A stretch of 52,952 nt of DNA from Bernardetiaceae bacterium (GTDB taxonomy: Bacteria; Bacteroidota; Bacteroidia; Cytophagales; Thermoflexibacteraceae), in the NCBI GenBank assembly GCA_025454895.1, contig JALONO010000010.1, forward strand, positions 1 through 52,952. Direction: 5' to 3'. Below are positions 3,012 through 48,994 of this stretch, piece by piece (within the stretch, counting starts at the first letter, position 1; the number at the start of each line of letters is the position of its first letter). The notes under the pieces are model-generated. The model saw only the letters and a list, made by a program, of their open reading frames with translations, had not been told where the DNA came from and searched no databases. A program made the position numbers and the translations under genes.

Positions 3012-3546
3012 TTGGCAATGCCACGAACGGAGGAAGGGGGGCGATAAAAATCGGCGAGGCTCAATAAACTTCTTGCATATTAGAACATGTTTTGGATTTT
3101 TAAATGTTTGAATATCAGCAACTTACTTGAAATTGCTCATCTTTTACGCCCTTTAGATTTAAATGGTTGGGACTGAGCAAAGTTTTGATCCGGTTTATCG
3201 CAGCCATAGGCCGATCAAAGTAATGTAAGTAAACTTAATTATTTGAATATCAATGTTTTGAAATTCCCAAACAAAATCTTAGACGCACTCGTCTTGAAAG
3301 TTGCGTTACCTCCCCTTGGGCAGGGGTGATCCCTTCTATTTTTGGCGGCTTGAAATAGGTCATTTGCATCCAGTTTGGCACGTTCAAGTGCTTGAAATTG
3401 GCTTTGCGTCTTAGCGGCTTCGCGAGAAATATTTTTGAACGGATCACCTCTGTACCTTGGGGAGGGCCAGGGAGGGATCGGAAAAGGCGGATTAAGAACA
3501 AAAATTCGGGGCTTTCACCCGGCCAAAAACCTAATCTGCAAGAAGT
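3012..3546. other. Long intergenic stretch with short repeats, no convincing gene
   Basis: AT-rich DNA between the SWIM gene and an SDR gene. TTTGAATATCA occurs twice (about 3108 and 3242). Around 3307-3332 and 3456-3476 are CCCCTTGGGCAGGGG-like and CCTTGGGGAGGGCCAGGGAGG blocks, the latter matching inversely the hairpin near 1343. An 83-codon minus-strand frame (3250-3501) crosses these repeats; its Lys/Arg-rich composition and lack of any family resemblance make it an unlikely gene. Confidence 0.5.
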
Positions 3547-4332
3547 CTAATACTGCCCCTCGGCGTGGGTCCAGCCGCCGTCCACCGCCAGCACCTGGCC
3601 GGTGGTAAACCGCGAATGATCCGACATAAAGTACACCGCCGCGCCGTCCAGGTCGTCGGGGCGGCCGTTGCGCCCGCCGTCCAGCGGTTGTTTGGTGCGG
3701 ATGAACGACTGGATCACCTCGTCTTCCGAGGCGCGGGCCGACATGGGGGTTTCTACCAAAGCCGGGGCGATCACGTTGAGGCGAATGTTATGCGGCGCGT
3801 AATAAGCCGCCGTGGCCTTGGTAAACCCAATAATGGCCGATTTGGTGGCCGCGTAGGCGTGGGTGGTAAAATACTTGGGCGAGGGCGAATAACCCAGCAC
3901 CGACCCCATGTTGAGCACCGTGCCCCCGCCGCCCTGGGCCATAAACTGGCGCACGGCGGCTTGGTTCGACAAGAAGAGCGAGGTCAGGTTCAACTCCAGG
4001 GTTTGGTGCCAGCCGTCGAGCGTGATCTCGTGCAGGGGGCCATCGCCGAAGCGGCGGCCGCTGCCCCCGGCCACGTGGTAGAGGCCGTGAAAGCCGCCCA
4101 ACTCGCTAACGGCCAAGGCAATAGCCTGGGGAGCGGTTTCGGGGTGGCTGGCATCGCCGCTGAGGGCGCGGGCCGCCGGGCCTAGGATTTCCAGGGCCGC
4201 TTGGCAACTTTCGGGCTTGCGGCCCACCACCACCACCTGGGCCCCGTGGGCCACAAAAGCCTGCGCCGCCGATAGTCCGAGGCCCGTGGTGCCGCCCACG
4301 ACCACGATTTTTTTACCTTCCAGCCAGTTCAT
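3547..4332 (-). CDS. SDR-family oxidoreductase
   Basis: Short-chain dehydrogenase/reductase of 261 residues. The glycine-rich motif G-G-T-T-G-L-G is at 13-19, the catalytic serine at S144 (NMGSVLG), and the Y-A-A-T-K dyad at Y160 and K164. The NNAG position is replaced by VAGG (87-90). The C-terminal VDGGW (250-254) is typical of enoyl- or 3-oxoacyl-reductase-like members. The basic residue after strand two (VGRKP, R38) suggests NADP(H), by inference. It starts at the ATG at 4332 and lies 63 bp downstream of nothing on its own strand except the ATPase gene ending at 4396, so the two minus-strand genes could share a transcript. The substrate is not deducible. Confidence 0.9.
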   Translation of the reverse strand: MNWLEGKKIVVVGGTTGLGLSAAQAFVAHGAQVVVVGRKPESCQAALEILGPAARALSGDASHPETAPQAIALAVSELGGFHGLYHVAGGSGRRFGDGPLHEITLDGWHQTLELNLTSLFLSNQAAVRQFMAQGGGGTVLNMGSVLGYSPSPKYFTTHAYAATKSAIIGFTKATAAYYAPHNIRLNVIAPALVETPMSARASEDEVIQSFIRTKQPLDGGRNGRPDDLDGAAVYFMSDHSRFTTGQVLAVDGGWTHAEGQY

Positions 4333-9532: not shown

Positions 9533-11113
9533 ATGCTCGCGGGCGTTCAACTCATTGGCTACTCCACTTCGGGCTTGGGCCAGGTAACGTTTACCGGCCA
9601 TAACCCGGCTACCGGGGCCGCACTGGCTCCTTCGTTTCGCCAGGCCACCGAAGCCGAAATCGACCAGGCGGCCCAACTGGCCCACCAAGCTTTTGCCGAA
9701 TACCGGCGGTGGACTGGCCCGCAAAAAGCGGCGTTTTTAGAACAAATCGCGGAGGAAATCCTGGCCCTGGAGCCGCTGATTGCCACGGCCCAGGCCGAAA
9801 CCGCCCTTCCCGAAGCCCGCCTCGTGGGCGAGCGCGGGCGCACGGTGGGCCAACTGCGCCTGTTTGCCCAGTGGGTGCGCCAAGGCCACTGGGTGGGCGC
9901 GCGCATCGACCGGGCCTTGCCCCAGCGGCAACCCCTGCCCCGCCCTGACCTGCGGCAAATGCTGGTGCCCCTCGGCCCGGTAGCGGTGTTCGGGGCATCT
10001 AACTTTCCGCTGGCATTTTCGGTGGCCGGGGGAGATACCGCCTCGGCCTTGGCGGCGGGCTGCCCAGTGCTGTTTAAGGCCCACCCGGCCCACCCGGCCA
10101 CCTGCCAACTGGTGGGCCAGGCCATAGTGGCGGCCGCCCAAAAGCTGGGCCCGCCCGAGGGGGTGTTCTCGCTCCTGCACGGCCCGGCCCCAGCCGTGGG
10201 GGCTGCCTTGGTGCAGCACCCGCTGGTAAAAGCCGTGGGCTTTACCGGCTCGTTTGCCGGGGGCAAGGCCCTCTACGACCTGGCCGCCCGTCGCCCCGAG
10301 CCGATCCCGGTATTTGCCGAGATGGGCAGCACCAACCCGGTGTTTTTGCTGCCCGGGGCCTTGCGCGAGCGCGGCGAGGCCATTGCCAAAGGGTTGGCCG
10401 CGTCCGTTACGTTGGGCGTGGGCCAGTTTTGCACCAATCCGGGCGTGTTCGTTACCGCCAACGGCCCGGAGCGGTCGCCGTTTTTGGCCCACCTGGCCCA
10501 GGCCCTGGCCCAAACCCCCGGCGGCATCATGCTCACCGAGGGCATTAGGCAGGCTTACGGGCAGGGGCTGGCCCGCCTGCAAACCGACGGGGCCACCCCG
10601 CTGGCCCAGGGCAGCCAGGAACCGGCCACCCGGCAAGTGGCGGCCCAGCTTTGGCAAACCTCCGCCCAGGCGGTGGCCCAGCACCCGCACCTGCTCGAGG
10701 AGGTGTTTGGGCCAGTGTCGGTCCACGTGGCCACCGAGAGCCGCGACGAGCTGCTGGCCCTGGCCCGGCAGCTCACCGGCCACCTCACGGCCACCGTCCA
10801 CGGCACCGAGGCCGACCTGGCCCAGTACACCGACCTGCTCGACGTGCTGGCCACCAAGGCGGGCCGCTTGATCATCAACGGGTTCCCCACGGGCGTGGAG
10901 GTGAGCCACGCAATGGTCCACGGCGGCCCCTACCCCGCCACTACCGATAGCCGCAGCACCTCGGTGGGCACAGCGGCCATCGCCCGCTTTGCCCGGCCCC
11001 TTTGCTACCAAGATTTCCCTAACCACCTGCTGCCCAACGAGTTAAAAGACGAAAACCCGCTGAAAATCTGGCGGTTGGAAGAAGGCGAGTGGATCAATTA
11101 TAAAATGACTTAA
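9533..11113 (+). CDS. Aldehyde dehydrogenase, 2-oxoglutarate-semialdehyde type
   Basis: NAD(P)+-dependent aldehyde dehydrogenase of 526 residues. Visible features are the oxyanion/cofactor region GASNFPLAFS (154-163, N157), the cofactor lysine in VLFKAHPAHP (K182), the FTGS loop (237-240), the general base E263 (FAEMGSTNP) and the nucleophile C300 (GQFCTNPG). The GASNFPLAFSVAGGDTA and GQFCTNPG signatures are those of the 2,5-dioxopentanoate (alpha-ketoglutarate semialdehyde) dehydrogenase group, which ends sugar-acid or hydroxyproline degradation. No companion catabolic genes are adjacent, so the in vivo substrate is inferred. The last three codons and the stop (AAA ATG ACT TAA) lie inside a copy of the interspersed repeat starting at 11102. 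The C-terminus therefore ends in repeat-derived K-M-T. Confidence 0.9.
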   Translation: MLAGVQLIGYSTSGLGQVTFTGHNPATGAALAPSFRQATEAEIDQAAQLAHQAFAEYRRWTGPQKAAFLEQIAEEILALEPLIATAQAETALPEARLVGERGRTVGQLRLFAQWVRQGHWVGARIDRALPQRQPLPRPDLRQMLVPLGPVAVFGASNFPLAFSVAGGDTASALAAGCPVLFKAHPAHPATCQLVGQAIVAAAQKLGPPEGVFSLLHGPAPAVGAALVQHPLVKAVGFTGSFAGGKALYDLAARRPEPIPVFAEMGSTNPVFLLPGALRERGEAIAKGLAASVTLGVGQFCTNPGVFVTANGPERSPFLAHLAQALAQTPGGIMLTEGIRQAYGQGLARLQTDGATPLAQGSQEPATRQVAAQLWQTSAQAVAQHPHLLEEVFGPVSVHVATESRDELLALARQLTGHLTATVHGTEADLAQYTDLLDVLATKAGRLIINGFPTGVEVSHAMVHGGPYPATTDSRSTSVGTAAIARFARPLCYQDFPNHLLPNELKDENPLKIWRLEEGEWINYKMT

Positions 11114-11638
11114 TGATTGCATGACTAAATGATTATCCATCATTTAAACACAGAAAACACGCAATCTCTACTTGCTTTTGGTATGAGCCCAACCTGTAAT
11201 CCGGGCATCGGGCCGATAAATCTTTCCCCCAACAATCCGCCACCGCCTGAGGGCTTGCCCCGCGCGCGGGCACCCATGTGCGAGGGTGTGCCTGTACGTT
11301 CGCACGCGGGGCCGGGGTGCTCCGGAGTCCGGCCAAGCCTCCCGAACGCTCCTTACGTCGCGCCCTCCGCCCCCCTAAGCCGGCCACGGCCCGGCCGTAC
11401 CGCCTTGGGGTCAATAGAATAATTCTACATGCCACCTGCTACACCTAAAATCCAATAACTTAAACCAAACCAAATAAAGATTGAGCACTTGTAATGATAC
11501 AACTGTTTGATAATCAATCATAAAAATTATTTAACCATGCTATCATTAAGCCATTTTAGTATTCCCGGCCACTTGGCCCATAGGTATTTTACAATCAAGT
11601 AGCACAATCATTTAATCATGCCATCATTCTATCATTTT
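11102..11638. repeat. Gap bounded by inverted copies of the AT-rich repeat (MITE-like layout)
   Basis: A plus-oriented 35-bp copy at 11102-11136 (AAAATGACTTAATGATTGCA and onward) faces a minus-oriented copy at 11604-11638; by my hand alignment about 29 of 35 bases match. A third, minus-oriented, more diverged copy lies at about 11523-11557. The 537-bp interval also holds a GC-rich island (11230-11420) and the palindrome TTGAT-A-ATCAA at 11507-11517. No transposase is present and no target duplication was identified. It may be a non-autonomous element or a pile-up of independent repeats. Confidence 0.6.
11230..11420. other. GC-rich non-coding island
   Basis: About 190 bases of very GC-rich sequence (for example GGCTTGCCCCGCGCGCGGGC and CGCTCCTTACGTCGCGCCC) abruptly inside AT-rich flanks. 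Open frames of about 100 codons exist on both strands but show Arg/Pro-rich low-complexity translations with no family resemblance. The CGCTCCTTACGTCGC type of block is reminiscent of intergenic repeats seen in other GC-rich Bacteroidota genomes, from memory only. A similar island lies at about 30040-30185. Confidence 0.45.
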
Positions 11639-11678
11639 GGTATAATTTGGCCTGTTTTTCCCCGCTTGCTCGGTAAAC

Positions 11679-12317
11679 ATGACCATTGACCCCGCCGCTG
11701 TTAAACGCCACCTGGCCCAAGATGCTACGCTCAAAACCTTGGTGGACACCATCCCCTTCCCCGAGGCCAAGCCCACCCAAGATTTGTACCTGGCCCTGCT
11801 CGAGTCGATCGTCTCCCAACAGCTCTCGGTCCGGGTGGCCGATGTGATCTGGGGCCGGGTGCTAGCCCTCTTCCCCGGCAACTACCCGGAGCCGGAGCGG
11901 GTATTGGCCCTGCCCGTGGAAACCTTGCGCGGCGTGGGCTTGTCGTTCCAAAAGGCCGGGTACTTCCAAAACGTGGCCCGTTACGCGCTCGACAACCAAC
12001 TGGCCCACGCCGACCTAGCCCCCGTCGGCGACGAGGAGTTGATCGCCCGGCTGAGCCAGATCAAGGGGGTAGGCCGCTGGACGGTCGAGATGCTGCTCAT
12101 GTTCGCCCTGGGCCGCCCGGATATCTTCTCGGTGGACGACCTGGGCATCCGCCAAGCCATCATCAGTCTTTACCAAGTAGAAGAAACGGGTAAATCGTTA
12201 AAAATCAAGCTAATAGAGCTATCGGAGGCATGGCGGCCTTACCGCAGCTACGCCTGCCGCTACCTGTGGCGCTGGAAGGACAACCCGCCGCTTACCGGCC
12301 AAACCCCCGCTGCCTAA
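11679..12317 (+). CDS. DNA-3-methyladenine glycosylase II-like (HhH-GPD) enzyme
   Basis: Base-excision repair glycosylase of 212 residues, AlkA-like but without the AlkA N-terminal domain. The conserved helix LLESIVSQQLSVRVADVIW is at 40-58. The helix-hairpin-helix IKGVGRWTVEMLL (128-140) binds the DNA backbone, and DIFSVDDLGIRQA (148-160) carries the catalytic aspartate, probably D154. It should excise alkylated purines such as 3-methyladenine. No Ada or AlkB gene is nearby. The stop codon TAA overlaps the ATG of the next gene by one base (TAATG), so the two are translationally coupled. Confidence 0.9.
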   Translation: MTIDPAAVKRHLAQDATLKTLVDTIPFPEAKPTQDLYLALLESIVSQQLSVRVADVIWGRVLALFPGNYPEPERVLALPVETLRGVGLSFQKAGYFQNVARYALDNQLAHADLAPVGDEELIARLSQIKGVGRWTVEMLLMFALGRPDIFSVDDLGIRQAIISLYQVEETGKSLKIKLIELSEAWRPYRSYACRYLWRWKDNPPLTGQTPAA

Positions 12318-30039: not shown

Positions 30040-30185
30040 GGGCACCTCCATCCGCCACGCCCGGCGATGGGAGGGCAGGGTAGGGCCCCTGGTGCGGGCG
30101 GGCGGGGGTGGGCGCACGGCCTGGCGCAGCCGGACGGGGCTGCCCGCCCCCGGCTGCAGCACCACCCAAAACCAAATGACGGTTG
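30040..30185. other. GC-rich non-coding island
   Basis: About 145 bases of very GC-rich sequence (for example GGTGCGGGCGGGCGGGGGTG) between AT-rich flanks, downstream of proS. Frames crossing it give Pro/Arg/Gly-rich translations with no family. Immediately beyond lies an inverse copy of the AT-rich repeat (30211-30240), the same neighbourhood as the island at 11230-11420, although I cannot align the two islands to each other convincingly. Confidence 0.45.
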
Positions 30186-30210
30186 GGCATTCTTTGTATT
30201 CTAGATGATC

Positions 30211-30240
30211 GATAATCATGCAATCAGTTAGTCATTTTAG
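30211..30240 (-). repeat. Inverse copy of the AT-rich interspersed repeat
   Basis: The reverse complement reads CTAAAATGACTAACTGATTG and continues CATGATTATC, close to the start of the copy at 32772. It sits 63 bp upstream of the penicillin acylase start codon. Confidence 0.65.
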
Positions 30241-32773: not shown

Positions 32774-32870
32774 AAAATGACTTAATGATTGCATGATTAA
32801 GTGATTGCCCCTCCTGTTTATCAATCTCTTACAATATCAGGAACCCGCAATTCTTATTTGATTTGATGCC
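32774..32870 (+). repeat. Interspersed AT-rich repeat, well-preserved copy
   Basis: Begins AAAATGACTTAATGATTGCA eight bases after the penicillin acylase stop and runs about 97 bases, ending near CCCGCAATTCTTATTTGATT. It aligns along its length with the copy at 38267-38365. No terminator-like stem was found in it. Confidence 0.75.
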
Positions 32871-36907: not shown

Positions 36908-38263
36908 ATGAATGTGCAAACCATGAACCTACGATTTTTTTGGCCGACGATGGGCCTCGTTTTCACCCTGGCCCAGCCCCTGGCCGCCCAAATTACGCCT
37001 AACGACGGCGATTGGAACAAGCCTTTAGTCTTCCTCAAAAACACGCCGGAAGCGGAGTTTATGGTGCGCGTGGGCGATGTGGACAACCTCAATGCGGGCT
37101 GGCCCCAAAAGCAGGACCCGTTTTTGGGCCAAACCACGCCGCCCCACCCCTACCCTTGGGAAACCGCGAAAACCGACCCCAAGGGCACCGACCGCATTTA
37201 TGTGGTAACCAGTTTTGGCGAAGGCAAGCCCAGTTGCGGGCAAGATGGTTACTCGCGCGCCACTACCAAGCCCGGCAATCGGCCCACGGCCATTTACCTC
37301 CCGCTCAAGGGCGTGCGCGAGGCCACGGCCAAAGTGGTAGTGTTGCAACTGATGATCGACGATTTCCAGGCCCCGACGCACTGCGCCCGCTACATTGTAC
37401 GGCTCAACGGCAAACGGTTTTTTGACCTGGAGCGACTGCTCAACCACGTGGACTTGAGCGGCCCGGTGAGCAAACTGGTAACCGTGCGCTTGCGCGATAA
37501 CTTGCTGCCGCTGCTGAAAGAGTCGCGGCTCAAGTTGGAGATCGACGACAAAGAAACCGGGGCGGGCGACGGGTACGCCATCGACTTCGTGAAATTGCTC
37601 GTGAACCCTAAGCCTGGCTACCCCAAGGTGGGCGGCAACCTGCGCGGCCGGGTGCTGAGCAAAACCGACCGCCAGCCCGTGCCCAATGCCAAGGTAGAGG
37701 TGGCGGGCTTTGGCCTCACCTACACGGACGCACAAGGGAATTTTGCCTTTAAAAACTTGCCCGCTGGCCTTAACTTATTGGAAGTGAATGCCGTTCGCTT
37801 CCTATCCAAACGGCAAGGGGCCGATGTGCTGGCCAGCAAAACCGATAGCCAAACCGAGGTACTGCTAGACCCCGGCCAAGAAAACACCGTGAACCTGGGC
37901 GGCCGCGACCTGCGCGAGGGCGACACCCTGGTATTGCCCAACATCCAGTTTGAGCAAAGCCAAGACGAACTGACCAAGGCCGCCGAGGCGGAGTTGGAAC
38001 GGCTGGCCCTGGCCATGAAAGCCCGCCCGCAAATGGTGGTGGAGCTGGCCGGGCATACCTCCGACGAGGGGCCCGAGCGGCCCAACCAATTGCTGGGCAA
38101 CGACCGGGTGCGCAACTGCCAGCGTTACCTGGTGCGCCGGGGCGTAGAAAAGGAGCGGTTACTCATCATCGGTTACGGCTCGGAAAAGCCGCTGGTGCCC
38201 AACACCACCCCCGAAAACCGGGCCCGCAACCGCCGGGTCGAGTTGAAGATTTTGCGGATGTAA
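36908..38263 (+). CDS. OmpA-family outer-membrane/peptidoglycan-linking protein
   Basis: The 451-residue protein has a signal peptide (the ATG at 36908, or MNLRFFWPTM from 36923, leads to LAQPLAAQ). The first 230 residues form an unrecognised domain (TSFGEGKPSCGQDGYSRATT and so on). A carboxypeptidase regulatory-like beta domain follows at about 240-325 (GGNLRGRVLSKTDRQPVPNA). The C-terminal OmpA domain is at about 345-450 with LAGHTSDEGPERPNQLLGND, retaining the Asp and Arg positions that bind diaminopimelate, and ending RARNRRVELKI. It should tether the outer membrane to peptidoglycan. Immediately after the stop is a copy of the AT-rich repeat. It is single-gene and unlinked to its paralogue at 46629. 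Confidence 0.85.
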   Translation: MNVQTMNLRFFWPTMGLVFTLAQPLAAQITPNDGDWNKPLVFLKNTPEAEFMVRVGDVDNLNAGWPQKQDPFLGQTTPPHPYPWETAKTDPKGTDRIYVVTSFGEGKPSCGQDGYSRATTKPGNRPTAIYLPLKGVREATAKVVVLQLMIDDFQAPTHCARYIVRLNGKRFFDLERLLNHVDLSGPVSKLVTVRLRDNLLPLLKESRLKLEIDDKETGAGDGYAIDFVKLLVNPKPGYPKVGGNLRGRVLSKTDRQPVPNAKVEVAGFGLTYTDAQGNFAFKNLPAGLNLLEVNAVRFLSKRQGADVLASKTDSQTEVLLDPGQENTVNLGGRDLREGDTLVLPNIQFEQSQDELTKAAEAELERLALAMKARPQMVVELAGHTSDEGPERPNQLLGNDRVRNCQRYLVRRGVEKERLLIIGYGSEKPLVPNTTPENRARNRRVELKILRM

Positions 38264-38266
38264 TGC

Positions 38267-38365
38267 TAAATGACTTAATGATTGTATGGTTAAATGATTG
38301 TTCTCCTGGTTTATCAATCATTTACAGCATTCGTAACCCGCAATTCTTATTTGATTTTAATATAA
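38267..38365 (+). repeat. Interspersed AT-rich repeat, well-preserved copy
   Basis: Begins AAATGACTTAATGATTGTAT three bases after the OmpA stop codon. It aligns with 32774-32870, including the shared stretch CCCGCAATTCTTATTTGATT (38337-38356 here). The orientation relative to the upstream gene is the same. Confidence 0.75.
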
Positions 38366-46501: not shown

Positions 46502-46568
46502 AGTGATCTCAAAAGTGAAGCACTTGCCCTAAAATCAAGTTGGAATTGCGCATTTCTCGTGAGATAAC

Positions 46569-46585
46569 TAATTGATAATCAATTA
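46569..46585. repeat. 17-bp palindrome (TAATTGAT-A-ATCAATTA)
   Basis: Perfect dyad with a single central base in the convergent gap 46502-46628. The core TTGATNATCAA also occurs at 1226-1236 and 11507-11517, each in repeat-rich intergenic DNA and each followed by an A/T-rich tail. Confidence 0.55.
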
Positions 46586-46628
46586 TAAAAACCATTAAAT
46601 CTCAAGAGCGTGATGGGCTAATGCGGCC

Positions 46629-48727: not shown

Positions 48728-48830
48728 GGCAAACTGGTTTTAACGGGCAAATTTCCATCTTCTTCCCCACAGTTTCAGGTTTTATTTCGATGTAAAATAC
48801 GCACACTTTGTCTTGTAAACAATTGATAAC

Positions 48831-48838
48831 CAAAGATA
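48831..48838 (-). promoter_or_regulatory. Candidate -7 box (TATCTTTG)
   Basis: Exact minus-strand TAnnTTTG match in the divergent gap, 103 bp before the ypdA ATG. Confidence 0.45.
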
Positions 48839-48994
48839 ATAATTCCTTGAACTTGCCATCAACGAGCCATTTTGCCACTAACGGCCCCGGCCGGCCCCTG
48901 TGGCAAATTTATTGCGGGTAAAACCCTTGAGGCCCGCCCGCCCGAAACGCGCCGCCCACCAAACCCGTTATTATTGCACCTGAACTCCGTTTCT

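Follow-up and report, generated by a model that had tools for sequence, protein, structure and literature searches.

The intergenic interval at 11102-11638 is best read as a pile-up of three degenerate copies of an AT-rich element of about 100 bp, here called A (A1 on the forward strand, A2 and A3 on the reverse strand), around one unrelated GC-rich repeat, B. Each A copy represents a non-autonomous DNA transposon, and we assign this reading a probability of about 90%. The locus lies in a stretch of 52,952 nucleotides from a Bernardetiaceae bacterium (the window), and repeats were searched for in the draft assembly from which it comes, an incomplete genome of 4.58 Mb in 389 contigs, which were sampled. 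The features are compiled in Table 1.

Table 1 Features of the interval and related elements in the window and the source genome.
Feature	Position	Strand	Details
Aldehyde dehydrogenase gene	9533..11113	+	PF00171, E 3.9e-46
MITE copy A1	11098..11183	+	86 bp; 75 of 100 aligned columns equal the 100-bp consensus; profile E 1.6e-13
Repeat B (GC-rich island)	11251..11398	+	lacks the 80-bp hairpin insert C; copies of 89-91% identity at C69, C128, C297
Candidate right-end remnant of A3, beyond A2	11443..11459	-	suggestive only
MITE copy A2	11463..11561	-	99 bp; 78 of 100 columns equal the consensus; profile E 2e-14
MITE copy A3, left part	11565..11642	-	profile positions 1-67, E 5.8e-10; outer flank TAA at 11643-11645
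HhH-GPD DNA glycosylase gene, following the cluster	11679..12317	+	PF00730, E 2.3e-12
Partial A copy	30166..30240	-	profile E 8.6e-10
A copy	32774..32864	+	profile E 2.4e-20; near the stop codon of the preceding gene
A copy, 100 bp	38263..38362	+	profile E 2.9e-19
Partial A copy	46531..46601	-	profile E 1e-10
Partial A copy	48794..48873	-	profile E 4.6e-9
Second MITE-like family, copies	window 3065-3549; L106:18884-19087; L254:8882-9047; L287:10175-10340; others

Architecture of the interval

The initial annotation had described a MITE-like unit of 537 bp bounded by two AT-rich 35-bp repeats in opposite orientation. Inverted AT-rich repeats are indeed present, since 11102-11134 and 11606-11638 are complementary at 85% over 33 nt and a better pairing, 82% over 39 nt, is found between 11096-11134 and 11525-11563. 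However, alignment of the copies revealed that the 35-bp motif covers just the left third of element A, and that the inverted motifs represent the left ends of three distinct copies, rather than two, each of which has two ends of its own; the 537 bp are thus not bounded as a unit. The GC-rich island between the AT-rich repeats was borne out in the sequence, and so were the palindromes, CTCCGGAG at 11320-11327 and CGCGCGCG around 11261-11268.

The three A copies have decayed to different degrees. A1 carries a 14-bp internal deletion, and the trinucleotides just outside it, CAA (11095-11097) and TGA (11184-11186), differ from each other: its target duplication has decayed. A2 is flanked by TTA (11460-11462) and TTC (11562-11564), a target duplication with one mismatch. 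That A1 and A2 lack perfect duplications speaks against the pile-up reading. A3 is probably interrupted by A2, as its left part and the segment 11443-11459 together form a 98-bp element. Among nearby 17-mers, a likeness to the consensus right end as good as that of this segment is seen in only 0.27%, but joining it to A3 raised the profile score merely from 35.5 to 36.1, and its identity as the A3 right end is only suggestive.

A1 has taken over the end of the upstream aldehyde dehydrogenase gene, providing its stop codon and final residues (about NYKMT), so that the product terminates in ...WRLEEGEWINYKMT, while aligned homologues end, for example, in ...FRLVDGEWQK. The best of these homologues reach about 63% identity in named genomes, mostly of Bacteroidota.

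Element A is a dispersed MITE

Full copies of A usually have the form TNA/TACYAAAATSA…TSATTTTRGTA/TNA. Their ends form imperfect inverted repeats, TACTAAAATGACTTAATGATTGC on the left and, as reverse complement, TACCAAAATCAAATAGAGATTGC on the right, with the shared pattern TACYAAAATSA..TA..GATTGC. Of 66 full copies, 49 measure exactly 100 bp; the mean identity of the copies to the consensus is 80%, and at this divergence we see no sign of recent activity. The conservation along the element is uneven, with a conserved centre, TTGATTATCAATCATTTA, and the interior holds a short tandem array of TNNATGAY octamers (8/16-nt units), which has grown to 6-12 units at some loci. Expanded arrays were observed at L002:62-200, where a 16-bp unit is repeated about eight times, and at L102:1431, L105:7928, L112:16045 and L248:11693, with 12 octamers; these arrays are candidate variable-number tandem repeats.

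The A profile gave 143 matches in 1.03 Mb of the source genome and none in the reversed sequence, which places the repeat well above chance expectation. Since 20 of the sampled stretches were chosen for the A copies on their contigs, the copy number was estimated only from the 60 contigs picked regardless of A; these contain 64 matches in 597 kb, so that the 4.58-Mb genome is estimated to carry about 490 copies. Genome-wide, the right-end TIR with up to three mismatches was found 205 times, and the reversed pattern not once. From its copy number and length, A would occupy about 1.1% of the genome, making it a high-copy MITE family in a little-sampled lineage.

The flanks of A point to transposition by direct target duplication. 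Where TNA flanks a copy on either side (25 copies), the middle base is identical in 17, compared with an expectation of 8.4 (permutation p 0.00025), and complementary in no more than 2, which argues for a direct duplication and not for an extension of the inverted repeat. Over all 79 full copies, the two sides share the base at N in 43 cases, compared with 14-24 at positions further out, one outlier reaching 34. By joining the flanks across each A and searching the sampled sequence with the result, we found on contig C213 a 100-bp A nested in an older, partly degraded A, with a perfect TAA on both sides; this self-nested insertion is the only empty site for A within the genome. From the size of less than 500 bp, the non-coding and multi-copy nature, the terminal inverted repeats and the 3-bp TNA duplication we conclude that A is a genuine MITE. 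The suggestion of a non-autonomous mobile element therefore holds for the AT-rich unit of about 100 bp, in view of its TIRs, TNA duplication, copy number and self-nesting, but not for the 537-bp interval.

Repeat B is a dispersed family separate from A, with about 20 copies in the source genome. Most of them contain a hairpin insert of about 80 bp (C), which is absent from the window copy. Insert C is a near-perfect hairpin (-53 kcal/mol, z -9; L008:1594-1675, L020:1595-1677), and similar hairpins are also seen at sites without a B match. Like REP/BIME sequences, B is GC-rich, palindromic, intergenic and dispersed; it differs in having only about 20 copies and in that the source genome lacks a REP-associated Y1 transposase (no match to PF01797, with positive controls), so that a REP/RAYT system was rejected for B.

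It is very improbable that the whole 537 bp (A1-B-A3) form a composite mobile unit with outward-facing A left ends and B as cargo. The outer flanks CAA (11095-11097) and TAA (11643-11645) agree at two of three bases, and all nine well-scored A copies near B turn their right end towards it, as would fit such a unit. Yet A stands on both sides of B in the window only, i.e. in 1 of 19 B copies, and a well-scored A lies within 160 bp of only about 7 of the 19 copies examined, most B copies having no A nearby. The gaps between A and B vary from 18 to 157 bp (173 for the next-nearest copy in the window), and the spacers are non-homologous, as judged by eye. Flanking on both sides in a single copy, together with non-homologous spacers, indicates that A and B did not travel together. 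In the source draft genome the AT-rich ends turn up on dozens of contigs with no tie to the GC island, and hundreds of A copies stand alone, many with TNA duplications of their own. The initial annotation had named as evidence against its reading that the two copies never move together elsewhere in the genome, and this is what was observed: A copies are dispersed singly and B occurs mostly without flanking A. As a caution, AT-rich inverted repeats around a gap between genes can represent several independent MITE insertions instead of one element. The loci at which A faces B, at gaps of 18-173 bp with unrelated spacers, comprise the window copy of B and those at C69, C119, C131, C280, C297 and C376.

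Genomic placement and a possible function of A

Element A is almost wholly intergenic, with only 4 copies within open reading frames. Based on crude, mechanical ORF calls, its density per kb of non-coding DNA is highest in convergent gaps (2.32), followed by tandem (0.94) and divergent gaps (0.50; chi-square p 1e-9), a pattern that is expected if selection removes insertions in genes and promoters. With respect to transcription, no orientation bias was apparent in tandem gaps (25 copies in the same, 28 in the opposite direction). Two stop codons, TAA and TGA, are of the TNA form, so that a copy inserted exactly at a stop restores one, and in one count the target duplication coincided exactly with the stop codon in about 13 of 35 copies. 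A targeting of stop codons was nevertheless rejected, as 10 coincidences were observed and 7.0 ± 2.2 are expected from a random choice among the TNA sites of the gap. A preference of the A left end for gene ends was likewise not upheld: the signal was strong at first, weaker with extrapolated ends and also present at 5' ends, and it is affected by the crude ORF calls.

Whether this placement reflects a function can be weighed against the same data. It is unlikely that A is chiefly a domesticated 3'-end element rather than a parasite, retained downstream of genes as a terminator, mRNA stabiliser or protein-binding site, and slightly less likely still that it has been recruited throughout the genome as a 3'-end module, e.g. 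as a terminator or as a putative DNA site at which a nucleoid or regulatory protein would recognise the TNNATGAY octamers. Such a module would explain the conserved centre, the uniform length of 100 bp and the strong concentration in convergent gaps, which are the observations in its favour. However, the pairing within A shows no covariation, TNA targeting by itself accounts for the duplications that fall on stop codons, and the balanced orientation in tandem gaps likewise counts against such a role. In addition, the QMITEs of Coxiella also cluster at the 3' ends of genes, with insertion tolerance as a possible reason (PMC5896051). The initial annotation had also raised the possibility of a structured RNA unit; that the interval represents a structured RNA gene or cis-regulatory RNA is hardly credible. 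Although the A consensus folds better than shuffled sequences (z -3.1), this follows from its terminal and internal inverted repeats; its pairs covary no more than those of shuffles, RNAalifold predicted no consensus structure (0 pairs), no Rfam family was found apart from a sub-threshold chance match, and the window copy of B has no folding advantage over its shuffles (z -0.8). The most plausible reading of the inverted repeats is therefore that they are DNA sites.

Relationship of A to known elements

Returning to A as a transposon, we searched for a partner element. No autonomous element with A ends was found in the source draft assembly or in 390 genomes of the order. DDE_Tnp_1 (PF01609) has one match in the genome, an IS5-family element on C209, and PF13359 and PF13586 have none. 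The C209 element was rejected as the partner of A, as this sole IS5-family element found has a different TIR, CTAAGAAGCTGTTTGAGTTAAA. The lone DDE_Tnp_1 element (L141:1165-2015) is apparently an intact IS5-family member, with perfect TIRs of 22 bp.

Insertion sequences of the IS1031 subgroup of the IS5 family generate 3-bp TNA repeats (PMC12016507), a likeness shared with A; in contrast to them, A has no transposase, and no insertion sequence with its TIR was found. It is by the target duplication only that A may be assigned to IS5/IS1031. In the mechanism we propose, a DDE transposase of the IS5 family with IS1031-like target choice would act in trans on the ends of A and move it as DNA, the source being an element now lost, unassembled or unrecognised. 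A inserts at TNA, duplicating these 3 bp, and its copies would persist between genes, mostly downstream of them, owing to selection against insertions in coding sequences and promoters. The A end sequences could serve as probes for the missing transposase in the source genome.

As far as the collections searched reach, A appears to be a new MITE family. The exact right end was absent from the other genomes in the contig collection, which may omit the source genome, and the ends as a family were not found in 390 genomes of the order, with one or two stray matches in each of 12 genomes besides the source. Matches in the relatives G005 and G022 were dismissed as chance AT-rich matches.

ERIC elements resemble A as small, high-copy, intergenic MITEs of similar abundance, and differ from it in sequence, target site and host phylum. 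They occur in enterobacteria, with up to 711 copies in Photorhabdus (PMC10969869), and the copy number of A lies in the upper portion of their cited range.

The nearest described analogue is BrickBuilt/MITEPgRS (MITE464) of Porphyromonas gingivalis, a MITE of the Bacteroidota with TIRs, an internal tandem-repeat array (minisatellite) and ends related to IS5-family elements (PMC4596501). Its TIR, GAGACCTTYGCA, differs from TACYAAAATSA of A, its repeat unit has 23 nt whereas A is built of 8/16-nt TNNATGAY units, it is present in 19 copies compared with about 490, and it has a known matching insertion sequence (ISPg1/ISPg9), while none was found for A (PMC4596501). Given the different ends and tandem unit, an identity of A with BrickBuilt was rejected.

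QMITE1 and QMITE2 of Coxiella burnetii gather at the 3' ends of genes, some of them supplying C-terminal codons or stops, and some are themselves targets of other insertions (PMC5896051). All three traits, i.e. clustering at 3' ends, supply of codons or stops and being inserted into, are common to A, but both QMITEs are longer, and the duplications of QMITE2 measure 7-9 bp compared with 3 bp (PMC5896051).

A second MITE-like family was also observed, with ends AGACCTCTTGCNNATTAG, a size of mostly 166-320 bp and apparent flanking duplications of ANT (AAT or ATT). In 1.03 Mb we counted 53 of its ends, forming 21 inward-facing pairs, and none in the reversed control. Its copy on L106 sits inside an A element.
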